This document shows positions 29,509-48,130 of a stretch of DNA of 64,000 nt, piece after piece. The notes under the pieces were generated by a model, which saw only the letters and a list, made by a program, of their open reading frames with translations, searched no databases and was not told the DNA's origin. This stretch comes from Bradyrhizobium sp. WBOS07 (lineage in GTDB: Bacteria > Pseudomonadota > Alphaproteobacteria > Rhizobiales > Xanthobacteraceae), in contig NZ_CP029008.1 in assembly GCF_024585165.1 (NCBI RefSeq), forward strand, positions 5,971,501-6,035,500, given 5' to 3'. Made by a program: the position numbers and the translations under genes. Positions within the stretch are counted from its first letter, which is position 1; every line of letters begins with the position of its first letter.

Positions 29509-31017
29509 CTACGCCACCCGCCACTCCGGCACCCCGTCGGCAGCCATCGCGATCTCGCCGAGCGAGCCCACCGGCGTGCGATCCATGTTGAGCAGATGGG
29601 CCAGCGTCGCGCTGTCGCTCGCCGGAATCCGTGCCAGCGTGCGCCGGTCGCCTTCCGTCTGCAGCATCACGACGCCGTGCTCCACCTCGCCGTTACGGCC
29701 ATAGAGCACCGTAAAACTCTCCACCTTGCCTTTGCCGCTGGCTTCGGTGACGAATTCCGGCACCGCGCCCTTGTTGCGGTCGGCCTCGCCTTGCACGCTG
29801 GTCTCCTGCGCCAGCGCCGCGCGCGGCGGCGCCTTCGAGACCACCAACGCGTGGTGCTTGGTGACGAAGCCGCCCTGGCCGTAGAGCAGGCCGAGCTTGG
29901 CGCCCTCACGCAAGCGCCGCACCATCGCGCAGGCCGCATGCGTCATGTAGGTGTTGAGCGGCGCGCCGAAGAAGGTGAGGCCGCCGGTCACGGTCGGCTG
30001 CACGTCGGCGGAAAGCCCGAGCGTCCGCCGCGCCATCTTGGGCACGCAGGGAAAGCAGCTGTAGAGCTCGATTGCGTCGAACCTTTTGCCGTCGCCGCCG
30101 GCGAGCTCCATCGCCGCTTTCAGCACCGCGTTCTGCGGATGGCTCTCGTAGAACTGGTCGCGCAGCAGATAATCGCGCGGCTCCTCCGCCGAGGCGCCGC
30201 CGAGCGGATAGACCAGCCTGTCCTCCGAAATCCCGGCCCCACGGGCCTTGGCAAGGCTGGTGAGCAGCAGCGCGCCGCCCATGTTGACGCTGGGATTGGC
30301 GACCATGAGCTTGTTGTAGGGCCACGCGATCAGCCGATTGTCCGCGGTCGGCGTCGTGATCTCCTCGGGTGTATAGCGCCGCTTCAGCCAGGCATTGGGA
30401 TTTTGCGCGGCGGCCTCCGAATAGCGCGACCATAGCGTACCGGATTCCGCCATCGCCTCGCGCGGCGTCTGGCCCCAATGCGCGGAGGAGGCAGCTTCGT
30501 AGAAAGGATAGACCGTCACCGGCCGGAACACGCCGAGCTTGACCGCCAAAGGCTTCTGGAACGCCGCGCCGCGCTTGGGCTCCTCGACGTCATGGGCGAA
30601 CGGCGTCCACGGCAGCTTGACGCCGGCACGCTCAGCCTTGGTCGCGGTCGACTGCGCTTCGGCGCCGCAGACGGCGGCGACCGTGCACTCACCGCGCGCG
30701 ATGCGCTTGGCGGCTTCGTGGATGTAGCGGATCGGGCTCTCGCCGCCGACCGGGCCGTAATGGCAATGCGCAGGTGTGATACCGAGGCGCTGCGCCAACA
30801 GCTGCTCGGGATCGCGATAGCGCCAGCTCAGGAAGTTGACGACGTCGAGCGACTGCACCTCGCCGAGCAGCTTTGCACCGGCATCTTGCTCGGCGCGCCG
30901 CAGCGCCTGCTCGAGCAGATCGAGCGGCTCGAGGCCGGCGCTGATCTCCTTCGGACGGTCGACGATCTCGCCGATGCCGACGATGACGGGGATGCGGTCA
31001 GGGGAAACACTCGTCAT
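29509..31017 (-). CDS. Acetyl-CoA acetyltransferase / SCP2-type thiolase-fold protein
   Basis: 502 aa with the thiolase fold in the extended version often annotated acetyl-CoA acetyltransferase. Recognisable parts are 'PVIVGIGEIVDRP' at the start, 'AKRIARGECTVAAVCGAEAQST' as two pieces near 105-125 (possible nucleophile Cys), 'MVANPSVNMGGALLLTS' and a C-terminal OB-fold-like extension of ~110 residues after 'LYGQGGFVTKHHALV'. The catalytic set of classical biosynthetic thiolases is not fully recognisable, so the reaction (thiolysis or retro-aldol type) is uncertain. Convergent with the third chemoreceptor. A repeat separates it from the nitronate-monooxygenase-like gene upstream. Confidence 0.85.
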   Translation of the reverse strand: MTSVSPDRIPVIVGIGEIVDRPKEISAGLEPLDLLEQALRRAEQDAGAKLLGEVQSLDVVNFLSWRYRDPEQLLAQRLGITPAHCHYGPVGGESPIRYIHEAAKRIARGECTVAAVCGAEAQSTATKAERAGVKLPWTPFAHDVEEPKRGAAFQKPLAVKLGVFRPVTVYPFYEAASSAHWGQTPREAMAESGTLWSRYSEAAAQNPNAWLKRRYTPEEITTPTADNRLIAWPYNKLMVANPSVNMGGALLLTSLAKARGAGISEDRLVYPLGGASAEEPRDYLLRDQFYESHPQNAVLKAAMELAGGDGKRFDAIELYSCFPCVPKMARRTLGLSADVQPTVTGGLTFFGAPLNTYMTHAACAMVRRLREGAKLGLLYGQGGFVTKHHALVVSKAPPRAALAQETSVQGEADRNKGAVPEFVTEASGKGKVESFTVLYGRNGEVEHGVVMLQTEGDRRTLARIPASDSATLAHLLNMDRTPVGSLGEIAMAADGVPEWRVA

Positions 31018-31054
31018 TGTTCTTGCTTCTTCACTCTCTCTCAGACATCTCCGA

Positions 31055-31150
31055 CCTCATCCTGAGGAGCCTGCGAAGCAGGCGTCTCGAAGGATGGGCC
31101 GCGGGCTCTGATGGTTCGAGACGGCGCTTGCGCGCCTCCTCACCATGAGG
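31055..31150. repeat. Palindromic repeat (CCTCATCCTGAGGAGC family)
   Basis: The left arm CCTCATCCTGAGGAGC (31055-31070) is identical to that of the element at 15932. The right arm (ending CCTCACCATGAGG) is slightly diverged. It separates two same-strand genes. Confidence 0.85.
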
Positions 31151-31160
31151 GTCTACACCG

Positions 31161-32294
31161 TCACTCCGCCACCAGCGCATTCATGTGCTCGACGGCTTCG
31201 GCGAACTCTTCCTTGAACTCCTGCACCACGGCGCCGGCGGACTTCACGCTGTCGATCAGGCCGACGCCCTGGCCGACGAAATAGCTGACGAGATCGCGCG
31301 CCTTGGCGTTGCCGCCTGCCGCCGCGCGGTCGATCGAGTTGAAGGCGTCGCGGCTGATGATGCTTTGCAGCGGCATCGGCAGTGCGCCCGGGCTGTCCGG
31401 CGCGCGGTCCCAGGCGTCGGTCCAGACCGAACGGAGCTGCCGCGCCGGCTTGCCGGTGCGGCCCTTGGAGCGCACCGCATCGCGCGAGGACGCCGCGATC
31501 ATCTTCTCGCGAAAAATCTCGCTGGTCTCGGACTCGACCGTCGCCAGCCACACCGAACCGGTCCAGACGCCCGCCGCGCCCATCGCCATGCAGGCCGCCA
31601 TCTGCCGGCCCGTCATGATGCCGCCGGCCGCCAGCACCGGCACGTCGCGAATGGGCTTGATCGCCTTGATCACCTCCGGCACCAGCACCATGGTCGAGAC
31701 CTCGCCGCAATGGCCGCCGGCCTCGGTGCCCTGCACCACGAGAATGTCGACGCCGGCCGCGACCTGGCGCAGCGCGTGCTCCTTGGCGCCGACGAGCGCT
31801 GCGACCGGCACCCCGTGTGTCTTGCCCATCTCAATCATCGCTTTGGGCGGGACGCCCAGCGCATTGGCGATCAGGCGGATCGGATGCTTGAAGGAGACCT
31901 CGAGCAGCTGCAGCGCGGTCTTTGCGTCGAACGGCTGCGGCTGGTCGGCCGCGACCTCCGTGCTCGTCAGCACGATATCGTATTTCTTCAGGAGATCGCG
32001 CGTGTAGTTGCGATGCTGCTGCGGCACGCGGGCTTCCAGGCTCTTCCAGGTGACGTCCTTTTCGCCTGATGTCGAGATGTTCTCCGGGATCAGCACGTCG
32101 ATGCCGTAGGGCTTGCCGTCGACATGGTCGTCGATCCATTTCAGCTCGCGTTCGAGCGTATCGGGTGTGTGCACGGTGGCACCCAGCACGCCGAAGCCGC
32201 CGGCGCGGCTGACGGCGGCGACGACGTCGCGGCAATGGCTGAAGGCCAGCAGCGGGAACTCGATTCCCAGCATGTCGCAGATCGGCGATTTCAT
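31161..32294 (-). CDS. Nitronate monooxygenase-family FMN enzyme
   Basis: 377 aa TIM barrel of the 2-nitropropane dioxygenase/nitronate monooxygenase and FabK-like family. Visible are 'AGGFGVLGA', the FMN-phosphate loops 'GTEAGGHCGE' and 'VLAAGGIMTGRQMAACMAMGA' (two pieces near 215-245), and 'GADGVWTGS'-like 'GAAGVWTGSVWL'. It oxidises nitronates or reduces/oxidises another FMN-dependent substrate, and many homologues in acyl-CoA gene regions are misannotated. Same strand as the thiolase-like gene. Length fits the family. Confidence 0.88.
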   Translation of the reverse strand: MKSPICDMLGIEFPLLAFSHCRDVVAAVSRAGGFGVLGATVHTPDTLERELKWIDDHVDGKPYGIDVLIPENISTSGEKDVTWKSLEARVPQQHRNYTRDLLKKYDIVLTSTEVAADQPQPFDAKTALQLLEVSFKHPIRLIANALGVPPKAMIEMGKTHGVPVAALVGAKEHALRQVAAGVDILVVQGTEAGGHCGEVSTMVLVPEVIKAIKPIRDVPVLAAGGIMTGRQMAACMAMGAAGVWTGSVWLATVESETSEIFREKMIAASSRDAVRSKGRTGKPARQLRSVWTDAWDRAPDSPGALPMPLQSIISRDAFNSIDRAAAGGNAKARDLVSYFVGQGVGLIDSVKSAGAVVQEFKEEFAEAVEHMNALVAE

Positions 32295-35119: not shown

Positions 35120-36397
35120 TCACGCCATGCTCAGCTCGTGGCGTCCCACCACCATCCAATGCACCTCGTCCGGACCGTCGGCAAAGCGCAAATGGCGCAC
35201 GTCCTGGTACATCTCGGCGAGCGGCGTCCAGTGCGAGATGCCGGTGGCGCCGTGCATCTGGATCGCCTGGTCGATGATCCTGCAGGCGCGCTCCGGCACC
35301 ATGGCCTTGACCATGGAGACCCAGACGCGGGCCTCCTTGTTGCCGAGCACGTCCATCGCCTTGGCGGCCTTCAGCACCATCAGCCGCATCGCCTCGATCT
35401 CGCAGCGCGCCTGGGCGATGATCTGCATGTTGCCGCCGAGATGGGCGATCTTCTTGCCGAAGGCCTCGCGCGTGAGTCCCCGCTGCACCATCAGATCGAG
35501 CGCCTTCTCGGCCTTGCCGATGGTGCGCATGCAGTGATGGATACGCCCCGGTCCGAGGCGGAGCTGCGAGATCTCGAAGCCGCGGCCCTCGCCGAGCAGC
35601 ATGTTCTTCTTCGGCACGCGCACATTGTTGAAGCGCATGTGCATGTGGCCGCGCGGGGCGTGGTCCTGGCCGAACACGTACATCGGGCCGAGCACCTCGA
35701 CGCCGGGCGTGTCGCGCGGCACCAGGATTTGCGACTGCTGCTTGCTCGGCGCCGCATCCGGGTTGGTCTTCACCATCACGATGAGGATCTTGCAGCGGGG
35801 ATCGCCGACACCCGAGATGTAGTATTTCTCGCCGTTGATGACCCATTCGTCGCCGACGAGCTTGGCGGTGGTCGAGATATTCTTGGCGTCGGAGGAGGCG
35901 ACGTTCGGCTCGGTCATGACATAGGCCGAGCGGATCTCACCGTTGAGCAGCGGCTTCAGCCACTTCTCCTTTTGCTCCTTGGTGCCGACGCGCTCCAGCA
36001 CCTCCATGTTACCGGTGTCGGGCGCCGAGCAGTTCATGGTCTCGGAGGCCAGCGGGCTCTTGCCGAGCTCGGCCGCGATATAGGCGTAGTCGAGATTCTT
36101 CAGGCCCTGGCCGGTCTCGTCGTCGGGCAGGAAGAAGTTCCAGAGGCCCTCCTGCTTGGCCTTGTTCTTGGCCTTCTCCAGCACCTCGAGCTGCTTCGGC
36201 GTGAAGCTCCAGCGATCTTCCTTGCCCTCGCCGGCCTTGGCGAACTCGATCGACATCGGCTCGACGGTGTCGCGGATGAATTTCTTGACATGATCGTAGA
36301 GCGGCCGGACCTGCTCCGACATCCTGAGGTCGTTGAGCTCGTCGCCGGGATTGAGGGTGTAGTTGGTGGTGCGGGGAATGTAAGTGTGTTTTGTCAT
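35120..36397 (-). CDS. Acyl-CoA dehydrogenase, ACAD11/LvaC-like subgroup
   Basis: 425 aa FAD-dependent acyl-CoA dehydrogenase. Family motifs 'AYVMTEPNVASSDAKN' (FAD/substrate) and 'GRIHHCMRTIGKAEKAL' are visible, and the C-terminal 'RFADGPDEVH' segment replaces the usual 'YEGT' motif. The 'ADGPDEVH' form is what I recall from the dehydrogenase domain of ACAD10/ACAD11 and from LvaC of Pseudomonas. In those systems the dehydrogenase acts after a kinase has phosphorylated a 4-hydroxyacyl-CoA. A stand-alone kinase of that type lies 2.5 kb away (38921), so this enzyme may process phosphorylated hydroxyacyl-CoA rather than do ordinary beta-oxidation. Subgroup call is by motif memory. Confidence 0.92.
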   Translation of the reverse strand: MTKHTYIPRTTNYTLNPGDELNDLRMSEQVRPLYDHVKKFIRDTVEPMSIEFAKAGEGKEDRWSFTPKQLEVLEKAKNKAKQEGLWNFFLPDDETGQGLKNLDYAYIAAELGKSPLASETMNCSAPDTGNMEVLERVGTKEQKEKWLKPLLNGEIRSAYVMTEPNVASSDAKNISTTAKLVGDEWVINGEKYYISGVGDPRCKILIVMVKTNPDAAPSKQQSQILVPRDTPGVEVLGPMYVFGQDHAPRGHMHMRFNNVRVPKKNMLLGEGRGFEISQLRLGPGRIHHCMRTIGKAEKALDLMVQRGLTREAFGKKIAHLGGNMQIIAQARCEIEAMRLMVLKAAKAMDVLGNKEARVWVSMVKAMVPERACRIIDQAIQMHGATGISHWTPLAEMYQDVRHLRFADGPDEVHWMVVGRHELSMA

Positions 36398-36576
36398 TGT
36401 TCCTCCCGGGGACGCTGAGATCGTTCTGGTGGCAGAATAGTGCCAGCACGGTCAAAGTGCGAGCGCGCATTTTTTCGCGCGAAGCCCTGCCACGCGATGG
36501 AATATCGCGAGGGCGTTTGAAATGTTGTTTGAATGGGGGCGACGCGAGTTGGCACACCAGCGTCACACTCTGCGCC

Positions 36577-36675
36577 GTCATCGCCCGCGCAGGCGGGCGA
36601 TCCAGTACTCCGAGACGGCAGGGGTTGAACCGAGAAGCTGCGGCATACTGGATCCCCGCCTTCGCGGGGAATGAC
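36577..36675. repeat. Palindromic repeat (GTCATCGCCCGCGCAGGCGG family)
   Basis: Starts GTCATCGCCCGCGCAGGCGG and ends CCTTCGCGGGGAATGAC, with inner arms GATCCAGTA / TACTGGATC. A close relative lies at 40309-40409. Occupies the gap between the acyl-CoA dehydrogenase start and the VOC gene stop. The rest of the 292-base gap shows nothing else I can name. Confidence 0.85.
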
Positions 36676-36689
36676 AGCATCCTGAGCGA

Positions 36690-37070
36690 TCAGCTCGGCA
36701 TCCGATGCATCGCGCAGATCTTGTTGCCGTCGAGGTCGCGCAGGTAAGCCAGATAGAGCTTGCCGCCGGGGCCCTGGCGCACGCCGGGCGGATCCTCGAT
36801 CGAGGTCCCGCCGGCTGCGACGCCTGCCGCGTGCCATTTGTCGACCTGCTCCGGCGAATTGGCGGCAAAGCCGATGGTGCCGCCATTCGCGCATGTCGCG
36901 GGCTCGCCGTTGATCGGCTTCGACACCGAGAACACGCCGGTCTTGGTGATGTAGAAGATGCGATGGCCGTCGACCCTGGCCGGCCGGACCTCGAGCGTGC
37001 TCAGCAGATTGTCGTAGAACGTCTTGGCCTTGTCGAGATCGTTGGTGCCGATCATGATGTGCGAGAACAT
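36690..37070 (-). CDS. VOC (glyoxalase/bleomycin-resistance fold) family protein
   Basis: 126 aa single VOC module pair. 'MFSHIMIGTNDLDKAKTFY' is the classic N-terminal beta-alpha with a metal-binding His4, and 'GGKLYLAYLRDLDGNKICAM' is the second half with residues for the C-terminal metal-ligand strand. Members include glyoxalase I, dioxygenases and metal-binding proteins of unknown function. Nothing narrows it here. Same strand as the SDR upstream and the acyl-CoA dehydrogenase downstream, both separated by repeats. Confidence 0.9.
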   Translation of the reverse strand: MFSHIMIGTNDLDKAKTFYDNLLSTLEVRPARVDGHRIFYITKTGVFSVSKPINGEPATCANGGTIGFAANSPEQVDKWHAAGVAAGGTSIEDPPGVRQGPGGKLYLAYLRDLDGNKICAMHRMPS

Positions 37071-37089
37071 TTGCCCATTCCCTGTCTTT

Positions 37090-37170
37090 GTAGCCCGGAT
37101 GGAGCGAAGCGAAATCCGGGTCTTTGTTATTTTGGCAGTCCCGGATTGTGCTTCGCTCCATCCGGGCTAC
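37090..37170. repeat. Palindromic repeat (GTAGCCCGGATGGAGCG family)
   Basis: Ends GTAGCCCGGATGGAGCGAAG and CTTCGCTCCATCCGGGCTAC are perfectly inverted, and inner ATCCGGG / CCCGGAT adds to the stem. Lies between the SDR stop and the VOC start. Confidence 0.9.
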
Positions 37171-37176
37171 GAAACC

Positions 37177-37956
37177 TCAAAACGCCGTATAGCCGCCGTC
37201 GATCACGAACGTGTCGGCGGTGTGATACGATGACGCCTTGCTCATCAGATAGACGGCGATGCCGCCGAAATCGGATGCTTCGCCGAACCGCCGCATCGGA
37301 ATGCGGGGCATCACATTGGCGACGAATTTCTCGTTGGCCATGAGACCTGATGTCATGTCGCTCTTGATCCAGCCGGGCAGGATCGCGTTCGCGGTGACGC
37401 CGTGGCGGGCGAGCTCGACGCCGAGGGCGCGCACCAGCGCGTTGATCGCGGCCTTGGTCGCGGCGTAATGCTCGTTGCGCGCGGTGCCGAAGATCGAGGC
37501 CAGACTCGAGGTCGCAACCAGCCGGCCGAAGGCATCGCCGGAATTGGCGCGCTCGGTCATGTGCTTTGCCGCGGCCTGAAACGCGTGGAACACGCCGTCC
37601 AGATTGGTCGCGAACATCGTGCGCCATTCCTCCTCGGTGCGTTCGATGAAGGAGCGTCGGCCGCCACCGCCGATGCCGGCATTGGCGAAGCAGCCGTCGA
37701 CCCGGCCGAACGTGTCGAGCGTCGCCTTCATCGCGGCATTGACCGAGGCCGGATCGCTGACGTCGCAGACGCGGGTGTCGACCTTGCCTGAGAGCTCGGC
37801 CATGCTGGCGGCAGCGGCCTTGTTCTTGTCGGGGTTGCGGCCCCAGATCGAGACGTTGCAGCCCTGGCCGGCGAGCGCTTGCGCGATGCCGAGGCCGATC
37901 CCGCCATTGCCGCCGGTGATCACGGCGACGCGGCCGCTGAGGTCGAAAATGTTCAT
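37177..37956 (-). CDS. SDR family oxidoreductase
   Basis: 259 aa classical SDR. 'TGGNGGIG' (14-21) binds the cofactor, 'ANAG' replaces NNAG (91-94), and the catalytic Ser151, Tyr164 and Lys168 ('HYAATK') are intact. The C-terminal 'VIDGGYTAF' is typical. The ATG at 37956 fits the family N-terminus. An upstream extension exists but has no ribosome site. It is divergent from the crotonase-kinase-DUF6285 operon (179-base gap). By position it could be the keto-acyl-CoA reductase that supplies the kinase with a hydroxyacyl-CoA, as LvaD does, but sequence alone does not show this. Confidence 0.92.
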   Translation of the reverse strand: MNIFDLSGRVAVITGGNGGIGLGIAQALAGQGCNVSIWGRNPDKNKAAAASMAELSGKVDTRVCDVSDPASVNAAMKATLDTFGRVDGCFANAGIGGGGRRSFIERTEEEWRTMFATNLDGVFHAFQAAAKHMTERANSGDAFGRLVATSSLASIFGTARNEHYAATKAAINALVRALGVELARHGVTANAILPGWIKSDMTSGLMANEKFVANVMPRIPMRRFGEASDFGGIAVYLMSKASSYHTADTFVIDGGYTAF

Positions 37957-38135
37957 GGCGCGTTTCCTTTTTTTGACAAGGCTGCTCAACATGCGGACGA
38001 TCAGCCGCTGCGCGCAAGATTGCTTGCCATGCTCTGATCACCATGGACAAGACCGCGCCAAAAATCAAATATGCGCCCCGGCAAAACAAATTCCGGTCTG
38101 CGAAACTGGCGCAGGCCGCAACTGGCGAGGACACC

Positions 38136-38924
38136 ATGCAGTTCAAACACGTCACGCTCGATTTCGATGGCTCGGTCGCGATCCTCAAGCTCGACCATCA
38201 GGAGGTGATGAACGCGGTCTCCGTGGACATGCTGGGCGGCCTTGCCGAAGCGCTCGATGCGATCGAGGAGAAGAAGGACGAGGTGCGCTGCGTGGTGCTG
38301 ACCGGCGCGGGTCGGGCGTTCTGCACCGGCGCCAACCTGCAAGGGCGCAACAACCAGTCGAAGAAGACCAAGGCCGGCATGACGCTGGAGACCGGCTTTC
38401 ACCCCTTCCTGCGTCGCATCCGCAATCTGCACTGCCCGATCGTCACCGCGGTCAACGGCCCGGCGGCCGGCGCCGGCATGAGCTTTGCGCTGCTCGGCGA
38501 CATGATTCTGTGCGCACGTTCCTCCTACTTTCTCCAGGCGTTCCGGCGCATCGGGCTCGTGCCGGATTGCGGCTCGACCTGGCTGTTGCCGCGCCTGGTC
38601 GGCCGGGCGCGTTCGATCGAATTGTCGCTGATGGGCGAGCGGCTGCCGGCCGAGAAGGCGCTGGAATGGGGCCTCGTCAACCGCGTCTACGACGACGGCG
38701 TGCTGATGGAGGAAGCGATGAAGCTCGCGCGCGAACTCGCCAGCGGACCGACCGTGGCGCTGTCGCTGATCCGCAAGCTCTATTGGGACAGCCCCGAAAA
38801 TTCCTTCGAGGACCAGCTCAATCTCGAGTTCCAGTGCCAGCTGCGCGCCGGCGACACCCAGGATTTCCGCGAGGGCGTCGGCGCGTTCCTGGAGAAGCGG
38901 CCCGCGCAGTTCAAAGGCAAATGA
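38136..38924 (+). CDS. Enoyl-CoA hydratase/isomerase, PaaG-like subgroup
   Basis: 262 aa crotonase fold. The oxyanion-hole segments are 'GRAFCTGANLQ' and 'NGPAAGAGMSFALLGD'. The active-site strand reads 'RIGLVPDCGSTWLLPRLVG'. The 'VPDCG-TWLLPR' signature with Asp in place of the hydratase Glu is that of PaaG-type delta-isomerases, and the first hydratase Glu is also missing (Phe). It probably shifts a double bond in an enoyl-CoA or oxepin-CoA-type substrate. The ATG at 38136 follows 'GGCGAGGAC'. The stop overlaps the next gene by ATGA, coupling it to the kinase. Confidence 0.9.
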   Translation: MQFKHVTLDFDGSVAILKLDHQEVMNAVSVDMLGGLAEALDAIEEKKDEVRCVVLTGAGRAFCTGANLQGRNNQSKKTKAGMTLETGFHPFLRRIRNLHCPIVTAVNGPAAGAGMSFALLGDMILCARSSYFLQAFRRIGLVPDCGSTWLLPRLVGRARSIELSLMGERLPAEKALEWGLVNRVYDDGVLMEEAMKLARELASGPTVALSLIRKLYWDSPENSFEDQLNLEFQCQLRAGDTQDFREGVGAFLEKRPAQFKGK

Positions 38925-39907
38925 TCGAGGCGGAACTTTCGCGCAGCGTCAAGCGCTGGTGCCCGGGCGCGACCGGCGTCACGGGCGCGGCAAAGTTGTC
39001 CGGCGGCGCCAGCCAGGAAACCTGGCGTTTCGACATCACCCATCCCGATGGCGTGATCGGCGCGATCCTGCGCCGTTCGCCGAAGGGCTATGGCGCGGCG
39101 CCGACCCGCGCGGCGGGCCTTGCCGCGGAGGCGCAGCTGATGCAGCTCGCCTTCGAGGCCGGCGTGCCGTCGCCGCGCGTGCTGCACGTGCTCGTGGCGG
39201 AGGACGACCTTGGCACCGGCTTCATCATGCAAAGGGTCGAGGGCGAGACCATTGCACGCAAGATCCTGCGCGATGACGAGTTCGCCTCGGCACGGCCGCT
39301 GCTGGCGCGGCAGATCGGCGGCATCCTTGCGGGCCTCCACAGGCTGCCAAAGGACAAGCTGCCGGAGCTGCGCAGCCGCGGCGCGACGCAGGAGATCGCC
39401 GAGTTCGAGCGCGACTATCGCAGCCTGAACTGGCCCAAGCCCGTGTTCGAGCTGGCGCTGCGCTGGCTGCGCGACCACGATCCCGGCCCGTCCGGCGAGA
39501 CCACGCTGGTGCACGGCGACTTCCGCAACGGCAATCTCATCATCGGCGCCGACGGCGTGCGTGCCGTGCTGGACTGGGAGCTCGCCCATCTCGGCGACCC
39601 CATGGAGGATCTCGGCTGGGTCTGCGTCAACTCCTGGCGCTTCGGCGAGATCGACAAGCCCGTCGGCGGTTTTGGTTCGCGCGAGGAGCTGTTCGCCGGC
39701 TACGAGGCTGCGGGCCGCAAGGTCGATCCGGCGCGTGTGAAGTTCTGGGAGGTGATGGGCACGCTGCGCTGGGGCATCATGTGCGGCGGCATGATGCAGC
39801 GGTTCCGCGAGGGGCCCGACCATTCGATGGAGCGCGCCATGATCGGCCGCCGCGCCAGCGAGACCGAGATCGATCTGTTGCGGCTCCTGGCGCCGCGCGG
39901 GAGCTGA
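38921..39907 (+). CDS. APH-fold phosphotransferase, LvaA/ACAD10-11 kinase-like (putative hydroxyacyl-CoA kinase)
   Basis: 328 aa aminoglycoside-phosphotransferase/choline-kinase fold. The catalytic loop is 'HGDFRNGNLI' (His198, Asp200), the metal-binding 'DWE' is at 218-220 and 'GFIMQRVEGET' forms the hinge. Not an antibiotic-resistance gene by context: it is translationally coupled (ATGA) to a crotonase, followed 3 bases later by a DUF6285 gene, and near an ACAD11-like dehydrogenase. The same trio occurs as lvaA-lvaB-lvaC in P. putida, where LvaA with LvaB phosphorylates 4-hydroxyvaleryl-CoA. I infer that this protein phosphorylates a hydroxyacyl-CoA in the cytoplasm. The chain length is unknown. 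Confidence 0.88.
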   Translation: MIEAELSRSVKRWCPGATGVTGAAKLSGGASQETWRFDITHPDGVIGAILRRSPKGYGAAPTRAAGLAAEAQLMQLAFEAGVPSPRVLHVLVAEDDLGTGFIMQRVEGETIARKILRDDEFASARPLLARQIGGILAGLHRLPKDKLPELRSRGATQEIAEFERDYRSLNWPKPVFELALRWLRDHDPGPSGETTLVHGDFRNGNLIIGADGVRAVLDWELAHLGDPMEDLGWVCVNSWRFGEIDKPVGGFGSREELFAGYEAAGRKVDPARVKFWEVMGTLRWGIMCGGMMQRFREGPDHSMERAMIGRRASETEIDLLRLLAPRGS

Positions 39908-39910
39908 CAC

Positions 39911-40288
39911 ATGCAGGACGAGCCGACCCCGATCGAGCTGACCAAGTCGGTCGCCGATTTCCTCCGCAACGACATCACGCCGCTGATCTCCGGCCACCAG
40001 GCCTTCAAGCTGCGCGTCGCCATCAATATCCTCGATCTCGTGACGCGGCAGCTGACGCGTGAGGAGCGCAGCAATGCCGCGGAAGTCGAACGGCTGCGCG
40101 CGCTGCTCGGCGAGGACGGTTCGGTCACCGAGCTCAATCGCGCGCTGGCCGAGCGAATTGCGAAAGGCGAGATCGATCTGGCAACCCCAGGCCTTGCCGA
40201 GCATCTGTGGGCGACCACGATGGACAAGCTCGCCGTCGATCAGCCGAACTATGCATCGTACAAGCGGGAGCTGGGACGGGGCGGGTAG
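39911..40288 (+). CDS. DUF6285 small protein, LvaB-like kinase partner
   Basis: 125 aa, mostly helical and acidic-basic mixed, with no signal or membrane segment. 'FLRNDITPLISGHQAFKLRVAINILDLV' (two pieces, ~20-45) and the C-terminal 'AEHLWATTMDKLAVDQPNY' match what I know of DUF6285. Such proteins sit next to APH-type kinases and acyl-CoA dehydrogenases. In the levulinate pathway LvaB is needed for or enhances LvaA activity. It starts 3 bases after the kinase stop, so co-expression and a stable complex with it are likely. No catalytic residues are recognisable. Confidence 0.82.
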   Translation: MQDEPTPIELTKSVADFLRNDITPLISGHQAFKLRVAINILDLVTRQLTREERSNAAEVERLRALLGEDGSVTELNRALAERIAKGEIDLATPGLAEHLWATTMDKLAVDQPNYASYKRELGRGG

Positions 40289-40452: not shown

Positions 40453-41232
40453 TTACTTCCCCACCCATTTCGGCGGGCGCTTCTCCGAAAATGCCTTCGG
40501 GCCTTCGATGTAGTCCTGCGAGGCCACCATCGCCTGCACCGCCGGGTAGTCCCGCTGCTCGGCGATCGCCTGCTCCAGCGAGACGCTGAGGCCTTTCTGA
40601 ATCGCCTGCTTGGACGCCCGGATCGACATCGGCGAGTTCTTGCCGATCATCTCCGCCCAGCGCAGCGCGGCCGAAAGCGCCTCGCCCTGTGGCACCACCT
40701 CGTTGACGAAGCCGAGCTCGAAGCCTTCCCTGGCGCTGACATGGCGCGCGGTGAGGATCATGCCCATGGCGCGCTTGAGGCCGATCTGCCGCGGCAGCCG
40801 ATGCAGGCCGCCAGCGAGCGCGGCAAGACCGACGCGCGGCTCGGGCAGGGCGAAGGTGGCGTTCTCCGAGGCGATGATGAGGTCGCAGGCCAGCGCGATC
40901 TCGAAGCCGCCGCCCATGGCAACGCCGTTCACCGCCGCGATAACAGGCTTGTCGCAGTCGAATCGCGCCGTGAGGCCGGCAAAGCCGCCCTTGTCCCAGC
41001 CGCGCTTGCCGCCGGCCGCCTGCCATTTCAGATCGTTGCCGGCGCAGAACGCCTTGTCGCCGCTGCCGGTGACGATCGCGATCCACTGCTCGGGATCTCC
41101 AGAGAAATCGTCGAACACCTTTTGCAGCTCGAAATGCGCATCGGTGTGCAGCGCGTTGTAGACCTCGGGCCGCGACAGCGTCACGATCGTGATCGGTCCC
41201 TTGCGTTCCACCTTGGAAAATTTCAGCTCCAT
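40453..41232 (-). CDS. Enoyl-CoA hydratase/isomerase family protein
   Basis: 259 aa crotonase fold. Oxyanion-hole segments 'DKAFCAGNDLKWQ' and 'NGVAMGGGFEIALACDLI' are present. One acidic residue is kept in 'FALPEPRVGL' (hydratase Glu144 position), but the second reads 'ALAGGLHRL' with no Glu, so a carnitinyl-CoA dehydratase-like or isomerase activity fits better than full hydratase. The C-terminal 'EGPKAFSEKRPPKWVGK' is typical. Divergent from the acyl-CoA dehydrogenase gene at 41447 (214-base gap), which probably shares regulation. Confidence 0.9.
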   Translation of the reverse strand: MELKFSKVERKGPITIVTLSRPEVYNALHTDAHFELQKVFDDFSGDPEQWIAIVTGSGDKAFCAGNDLKWQAAGGKRGWDKGGFAGLTARFDCDKPVIAAVNGVAMGGGFEIALACDLIIASENATFALPEPRVGLAALAGGLHRLPRQIGLKRAMGMILTARHVSAREGFELGFVNEVVPQGEALSAALRWAEMIGKNSPMSIRASKQAIQKGLSVSLEQAIAEQRDYPAVQAMVASQDYIEGPKAFSEKRPPKWVGK

Positions 41233-41446: not shown

Positions 41447-42721
41447 GTGGATTTCTCATTGCCTGCCGATCTCGTCGCCTATCTCGCAGAGCTCGACCGC
41501 TTCATCGCGCGCGAGATCAAGCCGCTGGAGGAAGCCGACGACAACATCCGCTTCTTCGATCATCGCCGCGAATGGGCGCGCACCGATTTCGAGAATGGCG
41601 GCCTGCCGCGGCACGAATGGGAAGCGCTGCTGCGCAAGGCCAAGGATCTCGCCGACGCCGCCGGCCATCTGCGCTTTCCGGTGCCGAGGCAATATGGCGG
41701 CAAGGACGGCTCCAACCTCTGGATGGCCGTGATCCGCGAGCATTTCGCCGCCAAGGGCCTCGGCCTACACAACGACCTCCAGAACGAGCACTCCATCGTC
41801 GGCAACTTTCCCGTCGTCACCATGCTCGACCGCTACGGCCGCGACGACCAGAAGGCGATGATCGACGGCTCGATCAAGGGCAAGTACCGCATCACCTTCG
41901 GCCTGACCGAGCCGCATCACGGCTCGGATGCGACGCACATGGAGACGCGCGCAGTGCCCGCCACGCGCGACAACGTCAAGGGCTGGATCATCAACGGCGA
42001 GAAGATGTGGACCACCGGCATGCATGTCGCGACGCACTGCGCGCTGTTCGCGCGCACGTCCGGCAATGACGGCGATGCCCGCGGCATCACCTGCTTCCTG
42101 GTGCCGGCCAAGAGCCCGGGCGTGAAGGTCGAGGAGTACATGTGGACCTTCAACATGCCGACCGATCATCCGCGCGTCAGCTTTACCGACGTGTTCGTGC
42201 CCGAAGATGCGCTGTTCGGCGAGGTCGGCCGCGGCCTCTCACTGGCGCAATGCTTCGTGCACCAGAACCGCATCCGCCAGGCGGCGAGCTCGCTCGGCGC
42301 CGCCGTCTACTGCATCAACGAGAGCGTCAAGTACGCGCGCGAGCGGAAACCATTCGGCCGTGCGCTGGCGGAAAACCAGGCGATCCAGTTCCCGCTGGTC
42401 GAGCTCGCCACGCAGGCCGAGATGCTGCGGCTTCTGATCCGCAAGACCGCCTGGGAGATGGACCAGCTCACCGAGGAGCAGATCGAGCGCACGCTCTCCG
42501 ACCGCGTCTCGATGTGCAACTACTGGGCAAACCGCCTCTGCTGCGAATCTGCGGACCGCGCCATGCAGGTCCACGGCGGCATGGGCTATTCACGCCACAA
42601 GCCGTTTGAGCACATCTACCGCCACCACCGCCGCTACCGCATCACCGAAGGCAGCGAGGAAATCCAGATGCGCAAAGTGGCGGGATTCCTGTTCGGCTAT
42701 ATGGGGCCGGGGAAGCATTGA
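41447..42721 (+). CDS. Acyl-CoA dehydrogenase
   Basis: 424 aa acyl-CoA dehydrogenase with a GTG start at 41447 preceded by 'CGGGAGAG'. FAD-binding 'FGLTEPHHGSDATHMET' and 'GWIINGEKMWTTGMH' are present. The C-terminal catalytic segment reads 'YRITEGSEEIQMRKVAGF', a variant of the usual 'YEGT-EIQ' motif. Compared with the dehydrogenase at 35120, this one has the standard 'EG-EEIQ' form and is more likely to act directly on acyl-CoA. Followed by a repeat and then the convergent AMP-ligase gene. Confidence 0.94.
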   Translation: MDFSLPADLVAYLAELDRFIAREIKPLEEADDNIRFFDHRREWARTDFENGGLPRHEWEALLRKAKDLADAAGHLRFPVPRQYGGKDGSNLWMAVIREHFAAKGLGLHNDLQNEHSIVGNFPVVTMLDRYGRDDQKAMIDGSIKGKYRITFGLTEPHHGSDATHMETRAVPATRDNVKGWIINGEKMWTTGMHVATHCALFARTSGNDGDARGITCFLVPAKSPGVKVEEYMWTFNMPTDHPRVSFTDVFVPEDALFGEVGRGLSLAQCFVHQNRIRQAASSLGAAVYCINESVKYARERKPFGRALAENQAIQFPLVELATQAEMLRLLIRKTAWEMDQLTEEQIERTLSDRVSMCNYWANRLCCESADRAMQVHGGMGYSRHKPFEHIYRHHRRYRITEGSEEIQMRKVAGFLFGYMGPGKH

Positions 42722-42838: not shown

Positions 42839-44416
42839 TCAATTCACCCGCCGATCCTTCCCCGCCCAGTACGGCTCGCGCAATTGCCGCCGCAGAATCT
42901 TGCCGGAGGGATTCCTCGGCAGCGCCGGCAGGAACTCGACGCTCTTCGGCGTTTTGTAGCCGGCGATGCGCGTCCGGGTGAAGTTGATGATGTCGGTGGC
43001 GGTCGCTTGCTTGCCGGGCTTCATCACCACCACTGCCTTTACCGCCTCGCCCCATTTGTCGTCGGGCACGCCGATCACGGCGGCCTCGGCGACATCAGGG
43101 TGATCGCACAGCGCGCTCTCGACCTCGGCCGGGTAGATGTTCTCGCCGCCGGAGATGATCATGTCCTTGATGCGATCATGGATGTAGAGGTAGCCGTCCT
43201 CGTCCATGTAGCCGGCATCCCCCGTGCGCAGCCAGCCGTCGCTGCGCAGCGTCGCGGCAGTTGCCTCCGGCAGGTTCCAGTAGCCGGCCATATTGGAGCC
43301 CGAGCGCGTCGCGATCTCGCCGACCTCACGCGGCGGCAGGGGCTTGCCGTCCACGTCCAGGATCGCGATCTCGACGCCCGGCAGCGCCTTGCCGGCCGAG
43401 CGCATCCGCTCCAGTCCCTCGACGTGGTCCTCCGGCGGCAGCGCGACGATGGTTCCCGTCGTCTCCGTCATGCCATAGAGCTGCACGAAGCCGCATTTGA
43501 AGACCTCGATGCACTCCTTCAGCAGCGCCGCGGGAATCGGCGAGGCGCCGTACAGCATGTATTTCAGCCTGGAGAAATCAACCGTCCTGGCGCGCGGCTG
43601 CCGCACCACGAACTGCATCGCCGCCGGCACCATGAACAGTTTCGTGATGCCGCTGTGCTCGAAGAAGTCCAAAACCTTGGTCGGATCGAACTCGCGTGCG
43701 ATCACACCGCGGGCGCCGTGATAGAGGCCCATCACGCCCCAGCCTGAGCCGCCGATGTGGAACACCGGCATTGCCACCAGCGAGACGTCATCGTGCGACC
43801 ACCGGTTCCACTCCGGCTTGTCCTCGGCGTTGCCGGATTGCACCAGGTTGAGGAAGTTGGCGTGGCTCAGCATCGCGCCCTTGGGCTTGCCTGTCGTGCC
43901 CGACGTGTAGAGCTGGATTGCGATGTCTTTTGGGTCGATCAGCAGCTTCGGATCGTCGCCGCTCTGCGCATCGCGCCAAGGAGTGAAGTCCTGCCATTCC
44001 GGCGCGCCGCCCTCGGTGGTGATGATGGTGCGCACGCCGGGAATCTGGTCCCTGATCTGGCGGACGAGCGTGATGAACTCCGGTCCCACGAACAGCACCG
44101 GCGCCTTGCAATCTTCGACGATGAAGGCGACCTCGGGCCCGGCGAGCCGCCAGTTCACCGGCGCCATCACGACGCCGGCTTTCATCGCGCCCATCAGCAG
44201 CTCGAAATAGAAGTCGCTGTTCTTGCCGAGATAGGCGATGCGATCGCCGCGTCTGACGCCCATCGCAATCAGGGCGTTGGCGACCTTGTTGGTCTTGATA
44301 TCGAATTCGGCAAAGCTGGTGAGGCGGCCTTCGAATTCGTAGGCGATCGCGTTGCCGCGGCTCCTGGCGCGCTCGCGCACCATGTCGGCGAGGTTCGCCA
44401 ATGGCTGAGTGGACAT
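42839..44416 (-). CDS. AMP-forming acyl-CoA ligase
   Basis: 525 aa, full-length ANL superfamily. Motif A5-like P-loop 'YTSGTTGKPKGAMLSHANF' lies near 178, 'QLYGMTETTG' in the middle, then 'GWLRTGDAGYMDEDGYLYIHD' (A7) and 'SGKILRRQLREPYW' with the catalytic Lys near the C-terminus. It activates a carboxylic acid to an acyl-CoA. Long-chain, medium-chain and levulinate-like substrates are all possible. The ATG at 44416 after 'GGGAGCAAC' matches the family N-terminus 'PLANLADMVRERA'. Same strand as the DECR-like SDR upstream. Confidence 0.94.
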   Translation of the reverse strand: MSTQPLANLADMVRERARSRGNAIAYEFEGRLTSFAEFDIKTNKVANALIAMGVRRGDRIAYLGKNSDFYFELLMGAMKAGVVMAPVNWRLAGPEVAFIVEDCKAPVLFVGPEFITLVRQIRDQIPGVRTIITTEGGAPEWQDFTPWRDAQSGDDPKLLIDPKDIAIQLYTSGTTGKPKGAMLSHANFLNLVQSGNAEDKPEWNRWSHDDVSLVAMPVFHIGGSGWGVMGLYHGARGVIAREFDPTKVLDFFEHSGITKLFMVPAAMQFVVRQPRARTVDFSRLKYMLYGASPIPAALLKECIEVFKCGFVQLYGMTETTGTIVALPPEDHVEGLERMRSAGKALPGVEIAILDVDGKPLPPREVGEIATRSGSNMAGYWNLPEATAATLRSDGWLRTGDAGYMDEDGYLYIHDRIKDMIISGGENIYPAEVESALCDHPDVAEAAVIGVPDDKWGEAVKAVVVMKPGKQATATDIINFTRTRIAGYKTPKSVEFLPALPRNPSGKILRRQLREPYWAGKDRRVN

Positions 44417-44503
44417 GTTGCTCCCGTGATGTCTTTTCTTATGCGGGGAGTGTGAAGTCATCCGCGGGTGAAGACAAGATGGGCGGAGCGCAGTTGTGGC
44501 TTC

Positions 44504-44639: not shown

Positions 44640-45512
44640 TCATCCCCGCTTGGCGCGGTCCTTCTCGTTCTGCGCCATGATGCTCTCGCGCGCGGTCTTC
44701 CAGTCGTCGTCGCTCCAGTCGCGGAGCTGGTAGAAATTGCCGCCCATGGCGAGCGCCTGGGCGCCGTCCATCGCGATGGTCTCACCGTTGATCCAGTCGC
44801 AGCCGCCGGAGATCAGGAACACGGCAAGGTTCTGCAATTCCTCCATGGTGCCGACGCGGCCCATCGGGTTCAACGCCTTGGTGCGCGCGCCGGCCTCGTC
44901 GCCGGGCTTGATGCGCTTGCTCATGCCCTCGGTCGGGATCTCGCCCGGCGCGATGGTGTTGAGGCGGATGCCGTAGCGGCCCCATTCGGTGGCGAGCGAC
45001 ATCGTCATGGCGTGGATCGCCGATTTGCTCATCGCCGACGGCACCACGTAAGGCGAGCCGTTGCGCACCCAGGTCACCGTGATCGAGACGACGTTGCCCG
45101 GCTGCTTGTCCGCGATCCAGCGCTTGCCGACCGCATGGGTCACGTAGAACGTGCCGTGCATGACGATGTTGGCGACCGCGTCGAAGCCGCGCGGCGACAG
45201 CTCCTCGGTGCGCGAGATGAAATTGCCGGCGGCGTTGTTGATGAGATCGGTGAGACCGCCGTCGCGAAAGATGTTCTCCACCATCTCGTCGACCGCGAGC
45301 GCGTTGCGGATGTCGACGCCGTGGCTGGTGACGCGGCCGCCGTACTCGGCCATCAACTCGGTCGCGGTCTCGTCGCACACGATCTTGCGCCGGCCGCAGA
45401 TGTGCACTTCGGCGCCGAGCTGGAGGAAGCGCGCCGCCATCGACTTGCCGAGACCGGTGCCGCCGCCGGTCACGAGAATGCGCCGGCCGGCCAGAAGATT
45501 TTCCTTGAACAT
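44640..45512 (-). CDS. SDR oxidoreductase, 2,4-dienoyl-CoA reductase-like
   Basis: 290 aa. 'TGGGTGLG' (15-22) and 'NNAAGNF' (92-98) match the SDR-type 2,4-dienoyl-CoA reductases (DECR), and 'SPYVVPSAMSK' supplies Tyr155 and a Ser159-x3-Lys163 pair as in DECR instead of a plain YxxxK. It would reduce dienoyl-CoA with NADPH for breakdown of unsaturated acids. Divergent from a crotonase gene at 45619 (106-base gap containing an AT-rich stretch 'GTTAATTGGTCGATTGACTA' that could hold a promoter or operator). Same strand as the acyl-CoA ligase. Confidence 0.85.
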   Translation of the reverse strand: MFKENLLAGRRILVTGGGTGLGKSMAARFLQLGAEVHICGRRKIVCDETATELMAEYGGRVTSHGVDIRNALAVDEMVENIFRDGGLTDLINNAAGNFISRTEELSPRGFDAVANIVMHGTFYVTHAVGKRWIADKQPGNVVSITVTWVRNGSPYVVPSAMSKSAIHAMTMSLATEWGRYGIRLNTIAPGEIPTEGMSKRIKPGDEAGARTKALNPMGRVGTMEELQNLAVFLISGGCDWINGETIAMDGAQALAMGGNFYQLRDWSDDDWKTARESIMAQNEKDRAKRG

Positions 45513-46532: not shown

Positions 46533-46585
46533 GAGCGAGCTTGTGCCCTGACTGTTCAACCCGACGAAAGATCGGAAAAACAACA

Positions 46586-48130
46586 ATGAGCGAAACGTCT
46601 GACTTCCTCGGCATCGTCTCCGGCGACCGCCGACGCACCCACACCGACGTCGCCGTCCGCGCCGACCGCATCGCCTCCGGCCTCGCCAAGCTCGGCGTCC
46701 GTCCGGGCGATTGCGTCTGCATGCTGATGCGCAACGACATCGCGTTCCTGGAGGCTGCCTACGCCGCGATGCGCCTCGGTGCCTATGGCGTGCCGATCAA
46801 CTGGCACTTCAAGCCGGAGGAGATCAACTACATCCTGAACGACACCGGCACATCCGTGCTGATCGGACATGCCGACATGCTGCACGCCCTGCGCGATGCG
46901 ATTCCGAAAGGCGTTACCGTGCTCAGCGTGCCGACCCCGCCGGAGATCCTGTCCAGCTACAAGATCGATCCCGATCATCTGAGGACGCCGGACTTCGCGA
47001 TCGATTTCGAATCCTGGCTCGCGCAGCACCCGCCCTATGACGGCCCGCTCGTGCCGCAGCCGATGAACATGATCTACACGTCAGGCACGACCGGTCATCC
47101 CAAGGGCGTCCGGCGCAACGCGCCGACGCCGGAGCAGCAGGCGGCCGGCGAGCGCATGCGCGCGATGATCTACGGGCTCAAGCCCGGCGCGCGTGCGCTG
47201 CTGCCGGGCCCGCTCTATCATTCCGCGCCGAACTCCTTCGGCATCCGCGCCGGCAAGCTCGGCGGCGCGTTGGTGCTGATGCCGCGTTTCGAAGCCGAGG
47301 AGTTTCTCGAAGCGATCGAGCGCTACCAAATCGACACCATCTTCATGGTGCCGACCATGTTCATCCGCCTGATGAAGCTGCCGGAGGCGGTCCGCAACAA
47401 ATACGACGTCTCCTCGCTGCGCCACGTCATCCACGCCGCCGCGCCGTGCCCGGCCGACGTCAAGCGCGCCATGATCGAATGGTGGGGGCCGGTGATCTAC
47501 GAGTTCTACGGCTCGACCGAATCCAGCGCCGTCACCTTTGCGACCTCGGAGGATGCGCTGAAGAAGCCCGGCACGGTCGGCAGGATCTCGCCCGGCGCTG
47601 AGCTGCGCTTCCTCGGTGAGGACGGCCGCGTGCTCGGCACGGGCGAGATCGGCGAGATCTACTCCCGCATGGCGGAACTGGCCGATTTCACCTACCACAA
47701 CAAGCCGGAGAAGCGGGCCGAGATCGACCGCGACGGCTTCATCACCTCCGGCGATGTCGGCTATATTGACGAGGACGGCTACGTCTTCATCTGCGACCGC
47801 AAGCGCGACATGGTGATCTCGGGCGGCGTCAACATCTATCCGGCGGAGATCGAATCCGTACTACACGCCGTATCAGGCGTGCACGATTGCGCCGTGTTCG
47901 GCATCCCCGATGCCGAGTTCGGCGAGGCGCTGATGGCCGTGGTCGAGCCGCAAGCCGGCGTCACGCTCGACGCGTCCGATGTCCGCGCCGCGCTGAGGTC
48001 GCATCTGGCCGACTACAAGGTGCCGAAGCACATCGAGATCCGCTCCGGCCTGCCGCGCGAAGACTCGGGAAAAATCTTCAAGCGCCGCCTGCGCGATCCC
48101 TATTGGGAGCAGGCAGGCCGGAAAATTTAA
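46586..48130 (+). CDS. AMP-forming acyl-CoA synthetase
   Basis: 514 aa ANL-family ligase. Motifs are 'YTSGTTGHPKGVRRN' near 165, 'EFYGSTESSAVTF', 'GYIDEDGYVFICDRKRDMVISG' (two pieces) and 'SGKIFKRRLRDPYWEQ' with the catalytic Lys. The N-terminus is short ('MSETSDFLGIVSGDRRR'). The ATG at 46586 is preceded by 'CGGAAAAACAACA', a weak ribosome site. Flanked by two crotonase genes on the same strand, each separated by a repeat. Likely activates a carboxylate for the hydratases. Substrate unknown. Confidence 0.92.
   Translation: MSETSDFLGIVSGDRRRTHTDVAVRADRIASGLAKLGVRPGDCVCMLMRNDIAFLEAAYAAMRLGAYGVPINWHFKPEEINYILNDTGTSVLIGHADMLHALRDAIPKGVTVLSVPTPPEILSSYKIDPDHLRTPDFAIDFESWLAQHPPYDGPLVPQPMNMIYTSGTTGHPKGVRRNAPTPEQQAAGERMRAMIYGLKPGARALLPGPLYHSAPNSFGIRAGKLGGALVLMPRFEAEEFLEAIERYQIDTIFMVPTMFIRLMKLPEAVRNKYDVSSLRHVIHAAAPCPADVKRAMIEWWGPVIYEFYGSTESSAVTFATSEDALKKPGTVGRISPGAELRFLGEDGRVLGTGEIGEIYSRMAELADFTYHNKPEKRAEIDRDGFITSGDVGYIDEDGYVFICDRKRDMVISGGVNIYPAEIESVLHAVSGVHDCAVFGIPDAEFGEALMAVVEPQAGVTLDASDVRAALRSHLADYKVPKHIEIRSGLPREDSGKIFKRRLRDPYWEQAGRKI

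Follow-up and report, generated by a model that had tools for sequence, protein, structure and literature searches.

The phosphorylation chemistry of ACAD10 and ACAD11, which are fusions of a kinase with an acyl-CoA dehydrogenase (ACAD), is described in section 13 of PMC11342911 and in the available text of PMC12440821; according to the latter, the catalytic residue of ACAD11 is D753, and R626, H634 and R637, substitution of which abolished activity, lie at the phosphate. In the lva operon of Pseudomonas putida (LvaA-LvaE), a separate kinase of the aminoglycoside phosphotransferase (APH) fold, LvaA, acts with a small accessory protein, LvaB. When examining a 64,000-nucleotide stretch of the Bradyrhizobium sp. 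WBOS07 genome (hereinafter the window; positions 5971501-6035500, on one contig of 6.73 Mb), we observed a locus that we read, from family memberships, residues, co-inheritance and fusions observed directly in the sequences, as an LvaA/LvaB-type kinase pair with two apparent kinds of dehydrogenase partner, both encoded in the window. One of these, denoted here ACADa (35120-36397, reverse strand), belongs to the ACAD11 clade, and the other, ACADb (41447-42721, forward strand), is a Glu-type acyl-CoA dehydrogenase that is co-inherited with the kinase. The original prediction, a candidate Lva-like degradation system, omitted ACADb, which lies outside its coordinates, though this is the most faithful partner of the kinase; the genes that it did list are intact open reading frames with correctly given boundaries.

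The core of the locus is the pair formed by the kinase (38921-39907, forward strand; Pfam APH, 4e-36) and the DUF6285 protein (39911-40288, forward strand; PF19802, 4e-33, with 114 bits against a gathering score of 28.1). The kinase retains the catalytic HGDFRNGN and LDWE sequences (HxD...N and DWE motifs) and scores 31 bits against the NCBIfam model of the aminoglycoside phosphotransferase APH(3'), below the cut-off of 205; as had been anticipated, it falls with LvaA, away from the ACAD10/11-type kinases (tree of 51 versus 20 rows, support 100/100), and the small protein is DUF6285, the family of the protein in the LvaB position as well. Among the DUF6285-linked kinases, LvaA forms a separate subgroup (96/98), and the window kinase belongs to a different one.

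The identification of LvaB comes from a Pseudomonas-like genus in which 8 of 149 genomes contain PF19802. In five loci (L143-L147), a kinase, an acyl-CoA dehydrogenase with DGPSEVH, a short-chain dehydrogenase/reductase (SDR) and a ligase surround the place of DUF6285, with a divergent long open reading frame before the kinase. In L144 and L145, the LvaB position is occupied by PF19802 members, and a domain scan of nine proteins from these two loci taken together (seven from L145 and two from L144) gives, in DNA order, a sigma54/PrpR_N regulator, APH, DUF6285, ACAD, SDR, AMP-ligase, DUF485 and an SSF permease, the lva gene set as it appears in the available text of PMC6692424. Since this is the lva gene order and L144 is P. 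putida (strain KH-21-134; L151, 100% identity), LvaB belongs to PF19802, an assignment made by gene order and species and not by the sequence of KT2440 itself. Named records provided 80 LvaA-like loci: DUF6285 adjoins the kinase in 67, a dehydrogenase with HCMR is present in 75 and ACADb is present in none; the misses (13 without adjacent DUF6285 and 5 without the HCMR dehydrogenase) include short contigs. On plasmid pHB8b of Thermus thermophilus HB8 (L294, 6805-9932), an LvaC-like dehydrogenase, a kinase, DUF6285 and a histidine phosphatase stand in a row; for the lva cluster of P. citronellolis, the available text of PMC6692424 reports a histidine phosphatase and no lvaB. Moreover, kinase-DUF6285 fusions occur in several genomes and in both kinase subgroups, and a natural fusion was predicted to fold as a single unit (predicted local distance difference test score, pLDDT, 94; predicted template modelling score, pTM, 0.92). 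By these sequence relationships, the pair is homologous to LvaAB and, by family logic, would phosphorylate a hydroxyacyl-CoA. DUF6285 is named nowhere in the open-access literature searched, a search outside which most subscription papers lie. Elsewhere, DUF6285-type kinases come in tandem pairs followed by one DUF6285 gene (L287, 8997-11489; L288, 9005-11518).

In a sample of 299 Pseudomonadota genomes, PF19802 was found in 32, of which 8 carry kinases of the LvaA type (six assigned from wide loci and two, G070 and G133, because they resemble G159 of the same genus) and 24 kinases of the window type. ACADb, called at an E-value of 1e-120 or better with the five best candidates per genome scored, was detected in 25 of the 299, namely, these 24 and G247, the locus of which holds a fused kinase overlooked by the PF19802 search. 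ACADb is present, then, in 25 of 25 genomes with window-type kinases versus 0 of 274 others, a count in which G247 joined the kinase side after its locus was read and the remaining 274 genomes were not read that way. In 10 of the 25 (G075, G187, G211, G140, G231, G134, G269, G255, G297 and G295, all apparently unlinked), DUF6285 and ACADb do not share a contig or are separated by more than 0.6 Mb and, therefore, the co-occurrence is more than linkage. Counts of this kind are inflated by shared ancestry, of which the Fisher tests applied to them take no account; the pattern recurs across several families. In another sample, which comprised 241 Alphaproteobacteria and had 4 ACADb genomes in common with the first, ACADb was detected in 39 genomes, 38 of which have a kinase match at an E-value of 1e-25 or better; a kinase at 1e-60 or better was likewise found in 39 genomes, 37 of them with ACADb. 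Of the two dehydrogenases, it is ACADb that tracks the kinase from genome to genome.

The two are often neighbours. ACADb adjoins the kinase or its DUF6285, or is one gene removed, in L039, L044, L045, L057-L059, L231, L280-L283 and the Sulfitobacter locus L005; the same closeness is seen in five Bradyrhizobium loci read wide (L060-L064), and adjacency is found also with fused kinases. ACADb relatives at an E-value of 1e-100 are present in 12 plasmid records. Nocardia farcinica has ACADb with DUF6285 and the kinase, and in Halomarina, Haloterrigena and Natrinema an ACADb relative is accompanied by an APH kinase (29-32%) and a protein of 157-159 residues (kinase and small protein beside ACADb at L291, 8287-9830; L292, 8283-9820; and L290, 5343-6882). 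This small protein attains no Pfam cut-off and has 115 database relatives, one of which is listed with a Pfam domain. The kinase pairs of L291 and L292 adjoin hydantoinase/oxoprolinase genes and LLM-class oxidoreductases, and that of L291 is also near the gene of an acetone carboxylase subunit.

At the positions aligned with the catalytic and phosphate-binding regions of ACAD11, ACADb contains FVHQNRIRQAAS and YRITEGSEEIQ, in which Glu replaces Asp; the combination of catalytic Asp, upstream Arg and HCMR helix that marks a phosphate eliminase was not found in it. The sequence FVH[QE]NRIRQAAS is present in 22 of the 22 ACADb rows of the alignment, and in homologues added later (three haloarchaeal ones, that of Nocardia, L281 and L296) RIRQAA and the Glu motif are retained and FVH is not always present. 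Phylogenetic analysis of 60 dehydrogenases, including 16 others from the genome of the window, recovered an ACADb clade (100/100) and a clade of the Asp enzymes (100/98), joined to each other with 98/91 support; in a second tree, of 54 rows, ACADb and the Asp eliminases came together with 98/93, and the best solved relative of LvaC is ACAD11. By these trees, ACADb is the sister of the Asp eliminases; it appears to be an unrecognised type of dehydrogenase. Tentatively, and with slightly more doubt than conviction, we propose that ACADb is a second, independent phospho-acyl-CoA partner, Glu-type and without the HCMR pocket, that, in archaea as well as bacteria, would process the product of the kinase/LvaB-like pair, and that the Asp eliminases (LvaC, ACAD10 and ACAD11) diverged from its side.

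ACADa, by contrast with ACADb, contains RLGPGRIHHCMR and ADGPDEVH at the aligned positions, with the equivalents of D753, R626, H634 and R637 all kept. The presence of ADGPDEVH and the closeness to ACAD11 (best solved relatives; 8v3u, 2e-116) agree with the original prediction, which had also linked this enzyme to LvaC; in the tree, it belongs to the ACAD11 clade and not to that of LvaC. All 64 Asp rows of the dehydrogenase alignment (one protein appears twice) have the Arg and HCMR; the enzyme of L286, examined after that alignment, has HSMR instead. By its catalytic Asp and R/HCMR, ACADa is likely to be a phosphate eliminase, as ACAD11 is.

Given this full eliminase signature, the kinase, DUF6285, ACADa, the SDR and a ligase could simply be an Lva-like set in a different order, with ACADa as the sole eliminase and ACADb as an ordinary beta-oxidation dehydrogenase that happens to be nearby. 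The position of ACADa, no more than about 8 kb from DUF6285 in all 8 sampled genomes of the genus of the window, fits this scenario, as do the presence of ACADa-like genes (at least 70% identity) in 16 of the 25 genomes with window-type kinases versus 2 of 274 others and the adjacency of related kinases to Asp/HCMR enzymes elsewhere; two genomes, G140 and G168, carry the ACADa-like gene and the kinase on one contig, about 16 and 30 kb apart, respectively. However, the co-inheritance of ACADb is left unexplained, the other 9 of the 25 genomes have no ACADa-like gene, and in 13 ACADa-like loci outside Bradyrhizobium the stretches read contain no DUF6285-type kinase and, in one case, an ACAD10-type kinase. 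In particular, G235 retains the kinase, the SDR and ACADb without ACADa, and its only ACAD11-clade gene found adjoins an ACAD10-type kinase. The same holds for the single ACAD11-clade gene found in each of G087 and G183, where the window-type kinase and ACADb are likewise present; among the ACAD11-clade loci read from the six other kinase genomes without ACADa, some have an ACAD10-type kinase nearby and others do not. We consider a mere reordering of the Lva set unlikely, roughly a one-in-four prospect.

The opposite simplification, under which ACADb is the sole partner of the kinase and ACADa, coincidentally placed in Bradyrhizobium, serves another pathway or the ACAD10-type kinase of the same genome (contig positions 3259744-3260802), seems less probable still. 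Such a kinase does adjoin an ACAD11-clade dehydrogenase there (3259744-3262349; L009, 9744-12349), and two further ACAD11-clade genes lie at 6553920 and 6062751. The co-inheritance of the kinase with ACADb and their association, together with a small protein, in haloarchaea and Nocardia are compatible with this scenario, and so is a Sulfitobacter plasmid stretch in which an ACADa relative is accompanied by SDRs and, three genes on, by a VOC protein (38%), with no kinase. Against it, ACADa stays near the kinase in all 8 sampled genomes of the genus, and the Sulfitobacter locus L005 combines an LvaC-like Asp enzyme with the kinase and ACADb in one cluster.

Several observations weigh against the involvement of both dehydrogenases and, especially, against a role of ACADb in phosphate chemistry. 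ACADb lacks the ACAD11 phosphate residues shown to be important by mutation, with only the general Arg631 kept, and its best solved relatives in phmmer searches are ordinary dehydrogenases. Asp/HCMR enzymes adjoin related kinases in G457 (L284, twice), G467 (L275) and Nonomuraea (L295) and are separated from one by a single SDR in G565 (L276), and in G443 (L286) a related kinase is beside the Asp enzyme with HSMR. Co-inheritance is imperfect: in G521, ACADb occurs with no kinase, in G467 and G565 the kinase occurs with no ACADb, no kinase was found near ACADb in the 15 kb read from Rhodobacteraceae QY30, and, of the 64 genomes showing a kinase match of any kind at an E-value of 1e-25, 26 lack ACADb, although most of these 26 matches are weaker and were taken for members of other subgroups without reading their loci. 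In haloarchaea, the small protein falls outside PF19802 and resembles DUF6285 weakly (hhalign probability 9.6%). Furthermore, because an ACAD11-clade gene (E-value of 1e-80; five candidates scored per genome) is present in 25 of 25 genomes with window-type kinases versus 86 of 274 others, an Asp enzyme possibly acts with the window-type kinase in trans. Finally, the lva-operon dehydrogenase is 31-33% identical to the ACAD11-clade proteins here, whereas the available text of PMC11342911 gives 62/56% identity of LvaC with ACAD10/11; either another protein was compared in that work or the lva loci analysed here differ from that of KT2440.

With these points taken into account, it is somewhat probable, in our estimation, that an LvaA/LvaB-type kinase pair encoded at this locus phosphorylates the hydroxyl of a CoA-bound acid and is served by two enzymes of the dehydrogenase fold, ACADa and ACADb. 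We infer the phosphorylation, the kind of substrate, the order of the steps and the reaction of ACADb as follows. The ligases would form the CoA ester of the acid, the hydroxyl of which would then be phosphorylated by the kinase, with the DUF6285 protein as a small partner, expected to be necessary as LvaB is; the oxygen would depart as phosphate, letting the acid into beta-oxidation. ACADa (Asp, R/HCMR) would eliminate the phosphate in the manner of ACAD11, and ACADb (Glu, RIRQAA) would oxidise the phosphorylated acyl-CoA, or its product, via the ordinary route through Glu and the electron transfer flavoprotein, thereby driving or completing phosphate loss without an HCMR pocket; crotonases, SDRs and thiolase would complete the chain. 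We thus commit to a scheme in which both dehydrogenases would take part in Bradyrhizobium and ACADb would be the general partner. Conceivably, the kinase might act instead on a free (tertiary) alcohol, like the 25-hydroxy steroid kinase (25-HSK), with another lyase removing the phosphate, but the sequence match to 25-HSK is weak (1.2e-5), no small partner protein is named for it in the available text of the source, and the window kinase is flanked by acyl-CoA ligases and dehydrogenases, so that this scenario appears highly improbable.

The remaining genes agree with the degradation of an acid after its activation, as the ligases, crotonases and dienoyl-CoA-reductase-like SDR suggest. ACADb, 1.2 kb past DUF6285 on the kinase strand, is separated from it by one crotonase (40453-41232, reverse; Pfam ECH_1, 4.7e-62). 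The other crotonase (38043-38924, forward) shares ATGA at 38921-38924 between its stop and the kinase start, and a gap of 3 bases precedes DUF6285 at 39911, as noted originally. Its description as PaaG-like was loose: the PRK05981 model is matched with 487 bits (NCBIfam cut-off, 351; family match from about 38136) and PaaG with 272 (cut-off, 345). Relatives of this crotonase at an E-value of 1e-70 occur in 23 genomes, 18 of which have the window-type kinase. Between it and ACADa are a candidate hydroxy/keto-acyl-CoA oxidoreductase of the SDR family (37177-37992, reverse; Pfam adh_short_C2, 2.8e-59), with a score below the cut-off for each of the 25 NCBIfam models listed, and a VOC/glyoxalase-fold protein (36690-37070, reverse; Pfam, 1.8e-7). 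Beyond ACADb, both expected ligases are found: an AMP-forming acyl-CoA ligase (42839-44422, reverse; the longest open reading frame reaches 44785, and the start at 44422 is our choice), identified by Pfam AMP-binding and PRK06187, above cut-off, and 49% identical to the ligase preceding the kinase in Sulfitobacter L005, and a second one (46541-48130, forward), recognised by its likeness (53-54%) to the plasmid ligases immediately upstream of the kinase in Cupriavidus (L007) and Variovorax (L006). Between them, an SDR (44640-45512, reverse) comes closest to 2,4-dienoyl-CoA reductase but does not reach the cut-off (PRK07677, 234 bits; cut-off, 318). At 29509-32294, two genes are labelled, putatively, thiolase-like and nitronate-monooxygenase-like; in G235 (L045), the kinase module is accompanied by relatives of both (71% and 87%).

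These findings connect DUF6285, a domain with no assigned function, with LvaB, the established helper of a hydroxyacyl-CoA kinase. They predict phosphorylation-driven removal of hydroxyls from acids far beyond levulinate and the mammalian 4-hydroxy acids, into haloarchaea, and name a dehydrogenase family, ACADb, that this chemistry would have to explain despite the lack of the known active-site residues.

Among the described systems, the 25-hydroxy steroid kinase of Sterolibacterium denitrificans is similar in that an APH-like kinase activates a hydroxyl for departure as phosphate, but its substrate is a steroid alcohol, its lyase is unknown and it is distant in sequence from the window kinase. 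ACAD10 and ACAD11 share with ACADa the equivalents of D753, R626, H634 and R637, whereas the window kinase is of the other type, with a DUF6285 partner, and an ACAD10/11-like pair is encoded separately in the genome. With respect to the lva operon, the analogy to levulinate degradation holds insofar as similar chemistry is likely, although the system differs and no evidence was found for levulinate itself as the substrate of the window system; nor are the parts the same, since ACADa is of the ACAD11 clade and the faithful dehydrogenase of the kinase is ACADb. Both loci have an APH kinase followed by DUF6285 (LvaB), with a dehydrogenase-fold partner, an SDR and a ligase nearby, and their kinases group together against the ACAD10/11 type. 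The window kinase, however, belongs to a different subgroup, neither of the two dehydrogenases compared, the ACAD11-clade eliminase and the Glu-type ACADb, is of the LvaC clade, and the window adds crotonases and has its genes on both strands.

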